This document shows, piece after piece, positions 3,473 to 47,453 of a stretch of 64,000 nt of DNA. Position 1 is the first letter of the stretch, and the number at the start of each line of letters is the position of its first letter. The notes beneath the pieces were generated by a model. The model did no database searches and was not told the origin of the DNA. It saw nothing but the letters and a program-made list of their open reading frames with translations. Source of the DNA: Pseudomonas fluorescens (GTDB lineage: Bacteria; Pseudomonadota; Gammaproteobacteria; Pseudomonadales; Pseudomonadaceae); assembly GCF_902497785.1 (NCBI RefSeq), contig NZ_CABVHK010000011.1:124001-188000 (forward strand), read 5' to 3'. The translations under genes and the position numbers were made by a program.

Positions 3473-4105
3473 ATGTCTTATATCGAACGCTTTCTGGGGG
3501 GCATTGCGGTCAGCGTGCAGCTGACCCTGCTGTCCTTTGCCATTGCGATCATTCTCGGACTGCTTCTGGCAATCATGAGGGTGAGCCCATGGCCACCCTT
3601 TCGCTGGTTTGCCAGCAGTTATGTTGAACTCATGAGAATGATGCCGCTGCTGGCATTGTTGCTGCTGTTCACTTTCGGCTTGCCGAAGCTGGGCTTCATG
3701 TACTCGCTGTTCACCTCGACGGTCCTGGTTCTGGGGCTGTATAGCGCGGCGTGGATCTGCGAGGTGGTGCGGTCCGGCATCAACACCGTGCCCATTGGGC
3801 AGATCGAAGCGGCCCGCAGTATCGGCATGCGGTTCGATCAGATACTGGGCGAAGTGGTATTGCCGCAAGCCGTGCAGTCGGTGATCGCCCCGCTGGGCAA
3901 TCTGTTCATCATACAGATCAAGGCGTCCGCCATCGGCGCCGCGATCGGTGTCGCCGACATCACCTACACCGCGCAAAAAATCAACTTCGACACCGCCCTG
4001 GCAGTGCCGACGTTCCTTGGTGCAATGGCGGCCTATTTCCTGTTGACCCTTCCTGCGGGTCTGTTTTTCCGATTTCTCGAGCAAAAAATGGCGGTGCTGC
4101 GATGA
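3473..4105 (+). CDS. Amino-acid ABC transporter permease (first)
   Basis: A 210-residue HisM/GltJ-type inner-membrane permease with about five hydrophobic segments. The EAA loop that docks the ATPase is 'IEAARSIGMRFDQILGEVVLPQAVQS' near residues 112-137. Its stop overlaps the start of the second permease by four bases (ATGA), so the two are translationally coupled and probably form a heterodimer. Confidence 0.9.
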   Translation: MSYIERFLGGIAVSVQLTLLSFAIAIILGLLLAIMRVSPWPPFRWFASSYVELMRMMPLLALLLLFTFGLPKLGFMYSLFTSTVLVLGLYSAAWICEVVRSGINTVPIGQIEAARSIGMRFDQILGEVVLPQAVQSVIAPLGNLFIIQIKASAIGAAIGVADITYTAQKINFDTALAVPTFLGAMAAYFLLTLPAGLFFRFLEQKMAVLR

Positions 4106-5028
4106 GCGCGGACAATCTGCTCTACGAACCGCCGGGTCCTGTTGCCAGACGGCGTAACCGGATCATCTCGGTGATTGGCGTGGTCCTGTTGTTCTGCTTT
4201 ATGTATGCGGTCGGACATCGTCTGGAGGCGAGTGGTCAGTTCGATGCTCATCGCTGGAAAATCTTCCTGCATCCGGGCACCTTGAAGTTCCTGTTTGACG
4301 GGCTGATGGCCACCTTGCTGGCTGCGGTCATCAGCACGGTACTGGCCTTCAGCCTTGCCGTACCTTTGGCGATGGCGCGGTTGTCGAACAGATTTTGGGT
4401 GCGCACGCTGGCTGCGGGCTACATTGGCTGTTTCCGTGCGGTACCGCTGCTGTTGCTGATTCTGTTTACCGTCATCCTGCTGCCTTCGATCGGGTTGCAC
4501 TGGTCAGCCCTGGGCTACCTGATTTTCGGCATGGTGCTGCATCACAGCGCGATGACAGCGGAGGTTGTTCGTGCGGGTATTCTTTCGTTGGGGCGCGGGC
4601 AGAAGGAGGCCGCGCTTTCCATTGGCATGCGCGATCATCAAGCGATGATGTGGGTGGTATTGCCACAAGCGCTAAAGCTGATGTTGCCAACGTTGGTCAG
4701 TGCCGTTTTGGCGATCGTCCAGGACACGTCTCTGGGGTACATCATTCCGTACGAAGAGTTGTTGCGACGTTCACAGCAGATATCGAGCTTCGCACCGCAG
4801 TCGCTGTTGCAATCGGCGTTCATTGTCACGGTGATGTACGGGTTTGTCAGTGCGTTGCTGTTGGCACTGCGTCGCTGGATTGAACGTCGGCAGGCTTATG
4901 ATTCTCGCGGTCATCGAACGAAGACCGCTATCACGGAGGGCAACTTTGGCGCAGCGGTAGAGGTTGCTCCAGTGATGCAATCGGGATTGCGGTCTGCGCC
5001 TGATCGAATGTCGGGACGGGATCAGTAG
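4102..5028 (+). CDS. Amino-acid ABC transporter permease (second)
   Basis: The start is the ATG at 4102 that overlaps the previous stop, giving 308 residues. The frame is open further upstream, but that part lies inside the first permease. A hydrophilic N-terminus is followed by membrane segments and the EAA loop 'KEAALSIGMRDHQAMMWVVLPQALK'. The C-terminal tail of about 45 residues after the last membrane segment ('RRWIERRQAYDSRGHRT...') is longer than usual for the family and has no recognised motif. This is the last gene of the asparaginase operon. Confidence 0.9.
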   Translation: MSADNLLYEPPGPVARRRNRIISVIGVVLLFCFMYAVGHRLEASGQFDAHRWKIFLHPGTLKFLFDGLMATLLAAVISTVLAFSLAVPLAMARLSNRFWVRTLAAGYIGCFRAVPLLLLILFTVILLPSIGLHWSALGYLIFGMVLHHSAMTAEVVRAGILSLGRGQKEAALSIGMRDHQAMMWVVLPQALKLMLPTLVSAVLAIVQDTSLGYIIPYEELLRRSQQISSFAPQSLLQSAFIVTVMYGFVSALLLALRRWIERRQAYDSRGHRTKTAITEGNFGAAVEVAPVMQSGLRSAPDRMSGRDQ

Positions 5029-43855: not shown

Positions 43856-43884
43856 TTCCTCGATCGCCGATGCTTACCACGCGT

Positions 43885-43912
43885 GGCCCTTGATTCCACT
43901 CGATCAAGGGCC
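43885..43912 (+). terminator. Stem-loop downstream of tcuC
   Basis: GGCCCTTGAT at 43885-43894 pairs perfectly with ATCAAGGGCC at 43903-43912, starting 30 bases after the tcuC stop. It is a strong 10-base stem without a clear T-run. Confidence 0.55.
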
Positions 43913-44006
43913 CGAAGAAGGGATGCGGCTTTTCTCAAAGCGCATGAGACGGTCGATTTAACATCATCGTAGTACGAGAGCTGGCTAGCGCTTATGCGTA
44001 TGTCCC

Positions 44007-44042
44007 ACGACCGGCTGCTATGGGTCGGAGAGTGACGGTCAA
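44007..44042 (-). repeat. Degenerate intergenic repeat, copy 5
   Basis: Read on the minus strand it gives TTGACCGTCACTCTCCGACC then CATAGCAGCCGGTCGTGG, matching 6464-6498 and 11707-11744 in order and spacing. Confidence 0.5.
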
Positions 44043-44065
44043 GCATCGACAGTCAGTAGGAATGG

Positions 44066-44244
44066 TCAGACTTCCGTTTGTTCCGCCATTTCCAGGGCAT
44101 CATTGACCTCGATTCACGTGTGTTCTCGGCGAGCGGGCGTTTGACCCGACCGGCCCAGAAATCTCTGACTCGGAGCGGGGCTTTCTGCCCGACAGGCTTT
44201 TCCTTGTTCCAAGGCTGATGGCTGTATCCAGCAGTAGTATTCAT
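44066..44244 (-). pseudogene. Internally deleted tyrosine recombinase (integrase) remnant
   Basis: The N-terminal part reads 'HQPWNKEKPVGQKAPLRVRD' then 'FWAGRVK', the start of a common proteobacterial phage-type integrase ('PWNKGKxVGQKxPLKxKxIWAxRxR'). After about 45 codons the frame changes. In the other frame, the last codons 'IEVNDALEMAEQTEV' and a stop at 44066-44068 match the end of the same family ('VDDALEIAEQTEV'). The whole catalytic domain is missing, so this is a dead gene left by an internal deletion. Confidence 0.65.
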
Positions 44245-44359
44245 GGCTCGTCCTCCACGTTGAGGGAGGACAAGGGTGAATCAGCCACCACGCCGGGTGG
44301 TCGTTATTCGACCCGTTGCAGCCGTTCGCCAACAACTGCAATTGGCCACTTTTTGCCAC

Positions 44360-44377
44360 TCACGACAGGCAGCAATC
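44360..44377 (-). repeat. Degenerate intergenic repeat, copy 6 (partial)
   Basis: On the minus strand GATTGCTGCCTGTCGTGA is identical to the core of 11707-11744 apart from one base. The left half of the repeat is not recognisable. Confidence 0.45.
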
Positions 44378-44411
44378 AGTAGACTGCTGCCTACGCACCA
44401 TTACAAGTTGA

Positions 44412-44969
44412 CTAGGGCTTGGTCGGATCTGCCGGACGCCAGATTAGTTTGCTGGTGTCATATCCCTGTTGCTGAGCAATCTCTAGCAGCTGTTCGCGCT
44501 TGACACCGTTAATTTCAGATGCGCGTGAAAGCACCCATAGATATTCTCGGTTTGGGTGGCCGACCAGTGCGAACTGGTAGTCAGGGTCGTGGTAAAGCAC
44601 CCAATACTCTCCTTTGGTTATTCCTGGCGCAATGCGGCTGAACCAGTTATCGAATTGCACCCAGAGTTTGTCTGTCTTACCTGGCTGCTGCGCTTCGGCA
44701 ACTCCTAGTACCTCGTTCCACTCGCCATCCTGTTCCCTACAACGATTGGTGACGTCAATGCGGCCATCGTCACGTAGACCGTAATGCGCTTCTGACTGCT
44801 GGCAATTGCGCTGGAAGAACATAGGTAATCTGGCCTGCTCGTACCAAGTGCCTTGGTATTTTTGCAGGTCGACTTGCATGGTGGCGGGAGGATGCTCCTG
44901 GCTTGAGCCAGCGCACCCGGCAAGTGCCAAACCCAGGCAGGAAAGTAGAACGATCTTGCGCATCGACAT
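44412..44969 (-). CDS. Lipocalin-family lipoprotein (Blc-like)
   Basis: The ATG at 44969 has GGAGG upstream; the frame is open ten codons further. The 185-residue product starts 'MSMRKIVLLSCLGLALAGCAGSS', with a lipobox 'LAGC'. The lipocalin motif is 'YQGTWYEQARLPMFFQRNC', followed by 'HYGLRDDGRIDVTNRC' and the C-terminal 'YLWVLSRASEI'. Family members such as Blc are outer-membrane lipoproteins that bind lipids. It stands alone next to an integrase remnant. Confidence 0.88.
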   Translation of the reverse strand: MSMRKIVLLSCLGLALAGCAGSSQEHPPATMQVDLQKYQGTWYEQARLPMFFQRNCQQSEAHYGLRDDGRIDVTNRCREQDGEWNEVLGVAEAQQPGKTDKLWVQFDNWFSRIAPGITKGEYWVLYHDPDYQFALVGHPNREYLWVLSRASEINGVKREQLLEIAQQQGYDTSKLIWRPADPTKP

Positions 44970-45233
44970 ATAGACCTCCAGGTTGTCACGCGAAAACACA
45001 TGTCATTGGAGGTAGGCGAGAGTGAAAAGTGCTATCGATTTCTTGATGGTGGCGTTCACTGCCGGCATGGGCCGTTTTCTGCCCCTGGTGAGAGGCAGAA
45101 AACGACCCCAAGCGGGCGAGGGCGGGCCTTCTTGAGACTCATTCAATCAGACATAAATGACGGTCGTTGACTGTTGCTTTGTAGATATACTATTTGCGAT
45201 TTTTTCCATCATCGGACATCGGACCCATCACGG

Positions 45234-46439
45234 ATGAACGCGCTTTTCCGCTCCCTGCTCAGTACTGGCCTGTTGGCCTTTTCCGCTGTCGTGCACGCTG
45301 CCCCGCCGCCCATCGAACAGGCCCCCAACGATGTAGAGGGTTATATCCAATGCATCCAGGACGCCTACGCCGCCAACCGCTGGCAAGCAGGAACCATTGC
45401 CGGATGTCGCGTGAGCAATCCGGCGGTGCGTTCCCTACGCGAAGGCGACTATGTGTCGGTTACCTTCACTCGCACTCAGAACGACCTCTACGAGCAGTCA
45501 CGAACACAGTGGATCAACTTCGACAAGGCCCTGCGGGTGCAGCTTCTCTCCAAGAAGCTTGGCGAACTATTCCAGACCGCCAACCCCGCGACCGCCTATT
45601 CGTTCCAGCGCGTGGCCAGCGACCTCGATACGCGATTTGCCGAGCTCAACGAAGCCCCCTTTAGTTGGTATCCAGCAACAAAAACGCCATACACCACAGT
45701 CAGCGGCTTATCCCTAGCGCTACTTCACAACGCCGAACTGGCGCAGTTCACCCGCTGCTTGGAAAACGCCACGGCACGCCTGAGCATATCGAGCATCAGC
45801 CGAATGGCGTTCGATACCAACGTAACGGCGTGCTCCGGGGAAATCGCTGCTCGCAACATAGATGGCAGTAAGGCTTTGTACCAGCCCCAGGCCTTCAGTT
45901 CAGTGACCGAGCAAGTCTGGGCGCAGATCGCATCACAGCAAGCCCGCGTCCAGGAAGCAGAGCGCCAGCGCTTGGCTAAGGAAGAGGCCGAGTCATGGCC
46001 AAACCGGCTCAAGGTTCTGTTGAAACAGGCATTCATCTGGGTGCTGGTGATCGGTGGGTTGTTCATTGCATGGACAGTTGTGCGCAACGTTGCGAATACC
46101 ACTTCGGAACAAGGTACTGGCCGCAGTCGCCGCGAGCATGATGAGGACGACGCGTACGAAGATCGCCAGCCACGTGAGCGCAAACCGGTGGACAGGAAAC
46201 CGGACCTCAACACCTTTGCCCTCAAACACCGCAAGATCAGTGCATTGACGACCAAGCACCTGTGCGCCAGTTGCACCTATTGGACGGGGCTGCGTACGCT
46301 GCACCCGGTAAACGGTGACCCCTACGTCAACCATGATGCAGTGGGTAAATGCGTGAAGAAGCGTGCCGGCTCCCCGTACGGCATGAAACGTCACAGCGAC
46401 GGTTTTCACTGCACGGATTATTCGGATATAGGCTATTGA
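45234..46439 (+). CDS. Hypothetical protein: signal peptide, one membrane span, Cys-rich C-terminus
   Basis: I do not recognise this family. The ATG at 45234 gives 401 residues. A signal peptide ('MNALFRSLLSTGLLAFSAVVHAAPP') is followed by a soluble domain of about 245 residues with scattered Cys, then a charged helix 'QEAERQRLAKEEAESW', a membrane span 'AFIWVLVIGGLFIAWTVV', a highly charged linker rich in Arg, Asp and Glu, and a C-terminal part with 'HLCASCTYWTG', 'GKCVKKR' and 'FHCTDY'. The four C-terminal cysteines could bind a metal on the cytoplasmic side. No partner gene is evident. Confidence 0.7.
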   Translation: MNALFRSLLSTGLLAFSAVVHAAPPPIEQAPNDVEGYIQCIQDAYAANRWQAGTIAGCRVSNPAVRSLREGDYVSVTFTRTQNDLYEQSRTQWINFDKALRVQLLSKKLGELFQTANPATAYSFQRVASDLDTRFAELNEAPFSWYPATKTPYTTVSGLSLALLHNAELAQFTRCLENATARLSISSISRMAFDTNVTACSGEIAARNIDGSKALYQPQAFSSVTEQVWAQIASQQARVQEAERQRLAKEEAESWPNRLKVLLKQAFIWVLVIGGLFIAWTVVRNVANTTSEQGTGRSRREHDEDDAYEDRQPRERKPVDRKPDLNTFALKHRKISALTTKHLCASCTYWTGLRTLHPVNGDPYVNHDAVGKCVKKRAGSPYGMKRHSDGFHCTDYSDIGY

Positions 46440-46943
46440 ACGAACCCGGAGTTGGATGCACTTTTGGCCTGGCCCCTTCGCCCTTGTCAGCGTGGTTCGC
46501 GACACCGTCCGGGCACTCCCCTGGTCTGTTGCTCGGGGTTGCTACAGCGCCTGAACCTTACCTCGCGACTGCGTGCAATCGATTATTCGAAATCATCGAG
46601 CGATATTGCTAGCCTGGGGTTAGAGGTTTCACATGAGTACGAGGCTTTCTCGCTTTCGGTCAGTCGCGACAGGCAGAAATCCGTCTTAGCCATCAGTCCG
46701 ATCTGAGACAGGCGATAGATGACGACCACCGCCAATCTCTCAAATAGCCAAGCGCGTTTAACGCTGCCGCCCTGGAACCACCGATCGCTTTAGACCTGGA
46801 TGAGTCAAGACGATCTGCACCGAACGCAATACGTTCAGATGCCACGAGCGTGCAAGCAAAGGCAACACTGTCTCCACTCCCAACGCACACCGCGCGGGGG
46901 TTGCTGATTAGCGTTCCTCACCACACTCCTGGAAGCATTGATC
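46440..46943. other. Intergenic region without recognised gene
   Basis: About 500 bases with no supported gene. A weak piece resembling the dispersed repeat (TCGCGACAGGCAG, 46665-46677) is present; otherwise nothing is recognised. Confidence 0.5.
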
Positions 46944-47453
46944 ATGAAAACCTTAAACATCGAGAACTACAAAACCAAGGGCGCACAAGGCTCTTCTACG
47001 CTCGGCATCAAAACCATGGCGCTTGGCATCTACGGCGCCTACTTTGCGCTCGCCGTCATTTACTTTTGGTTCGGCGGGATGAAGTTCACGCACTACGAAG
47101 CGGAGGGGCTGGTTCCGCTGGTGAGTAACAGCCCTTTCCTGGGTTGGGTTTATGACATTTTCAGTGTCGACACCTTCTCCAGTCTGCTTGGCGTTCTGGA
47201 GGTTTTGATCGGTACCCTGATTGCAGGTCGCTTGCTGTCACCCAAGCTTTCTTTGATAGGTGGCGCGTTGTCTGCTGGACTGTTTTTCACCACCTTGAGC
47301 TTCATGTTCTCGACCCCTGGCGTGATCGAACCCGGCCTCGGTTTTCCCGCGATTACGGTTGCTCCGGGCCAGTTTCTGCTTAAAGACATCGGGTTACTTG
47401 CCGCCTCGATATTGGTGGCCGGCCATTCTCTGACGGATCTGGAACGCCGTTGA
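46944..47453 (+). CDS. DUF417 family membrane protein (RclC/YkgB-like)
   Basis: The 169-residue protein has four hydrophobic segments and the DUF417 pattern 'YFALAVIYFWFGGMKFTHYEAEGLVPLVSNSPFLGW', also 'GVLEVLIGTLIAGRL' and 'TLSFMFSTPGVIEP'. RclC in E. coli belongs to the reactive-chlorine resistance operon. It is convergent with an AraC regulator that resembles RclR, which supports the family call. An upstream in-frame TTG at 46938 is less likely than this ATG. Confidence 0.85.
   Translation: MKTLNIENYKTKGAQGSSTLGIKTMALGIYGAYFALAVIYFWFGGMKFTHYEAEGLVPLVSNSPFLGWVYDIFSVDTFSSLLGVLEVLIGTLIAGRLLSPKLSLIGGALSAGLFFTTLSFMFSTPGVIEPGLGFPAITVAPGQFLLKDIGLLAASILVAGHSLTDLERR

Follow-up and report, generated by a model that had tools for sequence, protein, structure and literature searches.

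What does a gene encode whose product has all the parts of a membrane protein and resembles no family? The question is raised by a gene at positions 45234..46439 of the window, the 64,000-nucleotide stretch of Pseudomonas fluorescens DNA that was analysed. The layout of the protein, the distribution of its parts, the behaviour of the gene in the genome and the functions that could account for these are considered in turn.

Layout, relatives and family searches

The open frame (45234..46439, + strand, stop codon included) encodes a membrane protein of 401 aa, which would be 20 aa longer if translation began at an upstream TTG (45174). Residues 1–22 (45234..45299, +) were read as a signal peptide, with a hydrophobic N-terminus, a putative site that looks cleavable (..AFSAVVHA/APPP) and, as the alignment shows, a small residue ahead of it. 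The exported, mostly helical domain comprises residues 23–255 (45300..45998, +), about 233 residues ahead of the span, with helices taken from a low-confidence AlphaFold2 model (pLDDT 70–87 in parts). Hydropathy indicates one membrane span at about residues 261–284 (46014..46085, +): 19-residue hydropathy windows above 1.6 start only at residues 259–269 of this protein, with a best mean of 2.18, and the strongest one beyond residue 200 starts at 257–271 in 9/9 full-length relatives. A poorly conserved charged linker follows (residues 285–323, 46086..46202, +), with 26% identity between the own genome (G000) and G344 versus 70% for the C-terminal module. This module, residues 324–401 (46203..46436, +), carries C344, C347, C373 and C393 in the pattern C-x2-C-x25/26-C-x19-C. 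The order of parts given by the first-pass annotation, namely signal peptide, exported domain, one span, charged linker and four-Cys tail, was borne out by the open frame, the hydropathy and an alignment of nine full-length sequences.

Provided that the N-terminal part is exported, the C-terminus of a protein with a single span is cytoplasmic, so that the predicted topology has a periplasmic exported domain and a cytoplasmic four-Cys tail. The predicted orientation rests on the signal peptide, since lysine and arginine residues around the span (five in the 20 residues before it, three in the 20 after it) do not show the expected bias. Conservation of the four C-terminal cysteines, chosen beforehand as the refutation test, was found in 9/9 full-length sequences, and cysteines 40, 58, 175 and 200 of the exported domain were equally kept, making all eight invariant. 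Paired periplasmic cysteines often form disulfides, and two predicted disulfides probably brace this domain. Four cysteines with the spacing of the tail often bind Zn or Fe-S, and a metal-bound cytoplasmic end is a plausible prediction.

Strong matches were obtained in 6 out of 398 genus genomes, own genome included, and the gene is thus rare. Identity of these full-length relatives to the window protein was 95% (G367), 64% (G344 and G261), 48% (G015) and 47% (G421). A scan of genome contigs gave three loci, of which one is a relative in P. arcuscaelestis (locus L021, 48%) and the other two are evidently the contigs of G367 and G261 again; from 398 family genomes came G1039 (47%) and the distant G1083 (26%). 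The full-length set thereby counts nine sequences, window included, eight of one genus by their labels and the ninth named Pseudomonas. A module profile gave 109–135 bits for family members, whereas the collected loci, with 19,123 open frames, had nothing else above 20 bits. There was no strong match in 369 class genomes apart from the own genome, nor in the first IMG/VR scan, and no relative in the plasmid and named phage collections. Weak matches were discarded as chance in 7 of the 13 genomes listed by the genus search and 5 of the 6 by the class search, as were 26/28 and 21/22 in two further searches; the G015 tail against plasmids at E≤10 gave 18 records (best E 2), discarded likewise.

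The first-pass annotation had placed the protein in no known family, and neither did the searches. The whole protein was compared with Pfam, NCBIfam, PHROGs and PADLOC, six relatives with Pfam, and seven module sequences with PHROGs and Pfam; all matches were sub-threshold, and PADLOC had no model for the long form or the short forms described below. PAP_PilO (E 0.019, 1/6 relatives), TerC (E 0.2, 2/6), DUF6667 (E 0.0045, 1/6) and salicylate_mono (E 0.013) were below threshold and read as chance; phrog_3871, of unknown function, appeared in 4/7 module sequences with a best E of 0.044. Like LprI (PF07007), the exported domain is exported, Cys-containing and helical, and there is a short patch of resemblance near residues 82–97, but no Pfam match was found at E≤1 (6/6) and hhalign gave 1–5%. 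The two PF07007 matches of the own genome lie on other contigs. An internal repeat in the exported domain was rejected at a probability of 0.3%.

A sequence search of solved structures yielded no credible match (best E 1.7 and 0.64). Four sequences were modelled with AlphaFold2; mean pLDDT was 59.5 where the N-domain is helical and 52.4 when the tail was modelled by itself, and C-terminal tail models stayed near or below 50. The best Foldseek hits had E 1.2 (PDB) and E 0.14 (BFVD). VIA-align reached Z 6.9 with an rmsd of 3.0 over 80 residues (Atlastin-1) and 5–6 for others (14-3-3, other helical proteins), which we read as a common helical arrangement; the fold is not claimed as new. Literature searches, which do not work by sequence, gave no title describing this protein.

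The four-Cys module in phage contexts

The full-length profile matched proteins of G945 and G951, from two other Pseudomonadaceae genera, with its end only (E 2e-37 and 7e-17). These short proteins of 168 and 138 aa have a hydrophobic N-terminus, followed by a linker rich in K/R and by the four-Cys module. The viral pattern scan and its follow-up located the short form in two IMG/VR contigs, L165 and L173. With a tail-only profile built from the full-length proteins, the four short proteins scored 64–125 bits and unrelated frames about 20, and the four module cysteines were kept in all 13 intact sequences (nine long, four short); a second, interrupted copy in G951 was left out of this set. Judged by sequence, the module is separable and reused in short anchored proteins, which is new beyond the earlier observation.

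All four short forms were situated in phage contexts, namely two prophage-like regions of Pseudomonadaceae and two IMG/VR contigs, with surroundings of temperate-phage type that were partly assigned by reading. The G945 short form adjoins an excisionase gene (phrog_4764, 2e-31) and an integrase gene (phrog_1, 3e-38). The G951 region contains a CsrA-like gene (7e-7), a tape-measure gene (1e-78) and UmuC- and UmuD-like genes (phage DNA polymerase family 1e-154; 4e-41). Near the short form of L165, csrA, a gene resembling a repressor and a large one resembling a primase were identified by reading, and that of L173 was read as lying within a phage early region. The CsrA proteins of L157 and L165 are 66% identical. 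No phage surroundings were recognised beside the long form of the window.

Viral scans with single-protein queries found no relative; these negatives are weak because one scan missed L165 although L165 and the query share 55% identity. Nothing matched a second DNA pattern used on the viral collection. Of the 13 contigs from the pattern scan, L165 was the one true relative; nine carried members of a single phage protein family that has only a CASCSHWSG patch in common with the module, and the remaining three were others. In L159, L161–L164, L166, L167, L170 and L171, this is an HTH-like protein ending in the patch and further cysteines, perhaps another small phage metal module. Exported-looking proteins, 50% identical to each other, were also observed near the short form in L165 (8742–9884) and L173 (9883–10548).

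Selection, mobility and chromosomal surroundings

The substitution pattern shows purifying selection on the long form, with dN/dS values of 0.16–0.25 in pairs with finite dS; G000-G367 is the only unsaturated pair (dS 0.10, dN/dS 0.25). A comparison of rpoB and gene distances across six genomes showed the two to disagree. G344 and G421 are close in rpoB (95.4%, dS 0.19) and distant in the gene (51% DNA identity), and for G000 and G261 the rpoB dS is 0.197 versus 1.03 for the gene. Between G000 and G367 the values roughly agree (rpoB dS 0.143, gene 0.101), yet the genes occupy unrelated sites. When 19.9 kb surrounding the G367 gene were compared by blastn with the whole 64-kb window, a block at 45103..46459, of 96% DNA identity, was the sole alignment. 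Because only this block aligns and because the rpoB and gene distances disagree, the gene changes place: it is horizontally mobile, between G000 and G367 as a single-gene block. An inverted repeat at 45069..45108, with 18-nt arms of 89% identity, spans the left edge of the block. Contig L141 of the own genome (G000:C10, 7634–8083) holds a fragment copy of the neighbourhood at 97–98% identity, made up of window positions 44383–44586 and 45020–45264, with 44587–45019 absent; it includes the 5' end of the lipocalin gene and intergenic DNA and ends 31 bases into the gene.

In the window the gene is flanked by a lipocalin gene (44412–44999, - strand) and a DUF417 protein gene (46938–47453, + strand), both named by Pfam, neither of which was found at the other loci compared. 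The first-pass annotation had further seen an integrase remnant beside the gene; this was abandoned, as ten flanking fragments (46402–46960, 43858–44379) had no Pfam match at E≤5. No partner common to all loci was found. A WYL regulator (78–93% identical) and a small membrane protein (51–68%) lie within about 10 kb at 3/9 full-length loci, those of G344, G1039 and P. arcuscaelestis, with Pfam identifying the WYL domain in L021; the regulator is absent from the stretches covered at the other six, window included. The pair, with its membrane protein of about 90 aa, is located at L176 10243–11737, L174 about 3658–4910 and L021 6568–7807, and may be an independent cassette of island edges.

The gene occupies the same chromosomal slot, one of variable content, in G015, P. 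arcuscaelestis and G1039 (L014, L021, L174/L175), bordered by rtcB (92–98%) and by an S24-type regulator with ppa (77–99%), all named by reading. In G1039 the slot is about 31 kb long, with an integrase-like gene (L175:12018–12836, by reading) beside the S24-type regulator, and the gene sits between a type III restriction system (PADLOC 4e-186, 6e-161) and LeoA/LeoBC-like (dynamin-like) genes (PADLOC 1e-8, 3e-13). At the G1083 locus, transposase-like genes were recognised by reading and a SoFic-like gene by PADLOC (3e-43); the G344 locus has a HerA-like ATPase (mad8, PADLOC 1e-17). PADLOC covered 20 proteins. Family members made up three of these and G015 and G367 supplied a single neighbour each, while the neighbours in the window, G261 and G421 lie outside the set; the defence-gene neighbours are observations at single loci rather than an enrichment, and the surroundings are island-like in some loci only. 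The HerA-like operon of G344 was rejected as an obligate partner: 149 genus genomes, a draw evidently without G344, gave five matches at E≤1e-60, none of them in G000 or G015.

Possible functions

Phage genes beside a repressor or an integrase are often conversion or exclusion genes. We tentatively prefer, at a little short of an even chance, a mobile accessory gene with a membrane-tethered product that acts in phage exclusion and is built on a phage-borne, probably metal-binding module. The cytoplasmic four-Cys module, probably binding Zn or Fe-S, would be tethered under the inner membrane, with the helical domain, probably braced by two disulfides, in the periplasm. Phages or prophages carry the module behind a short anchor. 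Once tethered, it could bind a component of an arriving phage, so that other phages, or DNA entering the cell, would be stopped at the membrane, and the long form might use its periplasmic domain to sense or hold the entry apparatus. In favour of this reading are the eight invariant cysteines, the purifying selection, the mobility of the gene, the phage surroundings of the short forms, the WYL regulator and small membrane protein at three loci and the restriction, LeoA/LeoBC-, SoFic- and HerA-like neighbours at single loci. Against it are the six loci lacking the WYL regulator in the stretches covered, the absence of a PADLOC model for either form, the lack of relatives among named phages and plasmids and the HerA-like operon not being an obligate partner. 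The anti-phage role and every step of this mechanism are inferred. A more specific version, in which the four-Cys tail defines an undescribed membrane-tethered phage-exclusion family with a bare form in temperate phages and a host long form with a disulfide-braced periplasmic sensor, spreading alone or in WYL-regulated defence islands, is possible but doubtful.

The first-pass annotation suggested a trans-envelope sensor or anchor, in which the periplasmic domain would sense an envelope condition unrelated to phages and the metal-bound cytoplasmic end would pass the signal on or scaffold a complex. The order of parts and the conservation of both domains agree with this proposal, which still counts as a candidate, if an unlikely one; it misses the phage-borne short membrane proteins, in which the tail works without a periplasmic part, and the mobility of the gene, which together with its rarity is unusual in a housekeeping sensor, and no neighbour recurs at all loci. 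A gene that is lone, mobile and patchy and encodes a membrane protein could also be a lone immunity gene, spread as protection against a bacteriocin or contact-delivered toxin of competitors. Several loci, however, have no recognised toxin partner beside it, their neighbours being largely untyped, and the module fits less well in phages under this explanation, which we consider decidedly improbable.

The position of short forms near csrA, repressor-like (by reading) or integrase genes would equally suit a lysogenic-conversion gene serving the phage itself in regulation, DNA handling or lysogeny, of which the bacterial long form is a derivative with no anti-phage role. We rate this as quite improbable, given the purifying selection on the long form and the lack of a recognised prophage at its chromosomal sites in a non-systematic look. 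Finally, the tail recalls the HiPIP family (PF01355), with four cysteines, of which two form a CxxC, one a GxC and the last precedes an aromatic residue, and the look of CxxC..Y.G..GxC..PG..GWC.SW occurs in two HiPIPs, which would make it part of an Fe-S redox protein. The C-x25/26-C spacing is different, 7/7 module sequences lacked a Pfam match at E≤10, hhalign gave a probability of 2–4% and no HIPIP family was found in the own genome, so that this relationship is highly improbable.

Two described proteins come near to the preferred phage-exclusion reading. The Shield protein ShdA is described (PMC10270631) as a membrane-bound Pseudomonas defence protein with an RmuC domain, sometimes an orphan gene and often with WYL regulators in islands. 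The protein studied here has one span predicted by hydropathy and a WYL and island-like context at some loci only, and differs in sequence and parts; Shield membership is excluded because the RmuC domain is missing (Pfam at E≤1, 6/6 full-length members). PdpSau, an accessory protein of S. aureus prophages with an N-terminal membrane helix and a positively charged cytoplasmic C-terminus (PMC10127798), has, as described, a plan like that of the short forms; it belongs to different phages, and a four-Cys module is unmentioned in its abstract.

If phage exclusion is the role, the means of exclusion in Pseudomonas would include a further compact single-gene family, whose module can be tested in two architectures, a short phage-borne form and a long host form. 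The invariant cysteines predict metal content, topology and loss of function. Even if this is wrong, the gene is a sharply bounded single-gene unit at unrelated chromosomal sites with no recognisable machinery of its own.

Two further observations were made beside relatives. Next to the G344 copy, L016 923–9346 contains a five-gene run that encodes the HerA/mad8-like ATPase (1050 aa), three unplaced proteins and a 943-aa protein, Hsp70-like by reading, and is a candidate defence system. Next to the G261 copy, L015 1190–8185 encodes a 2331-aa protein with leucine-rich-repeat-like stretches, by reading.
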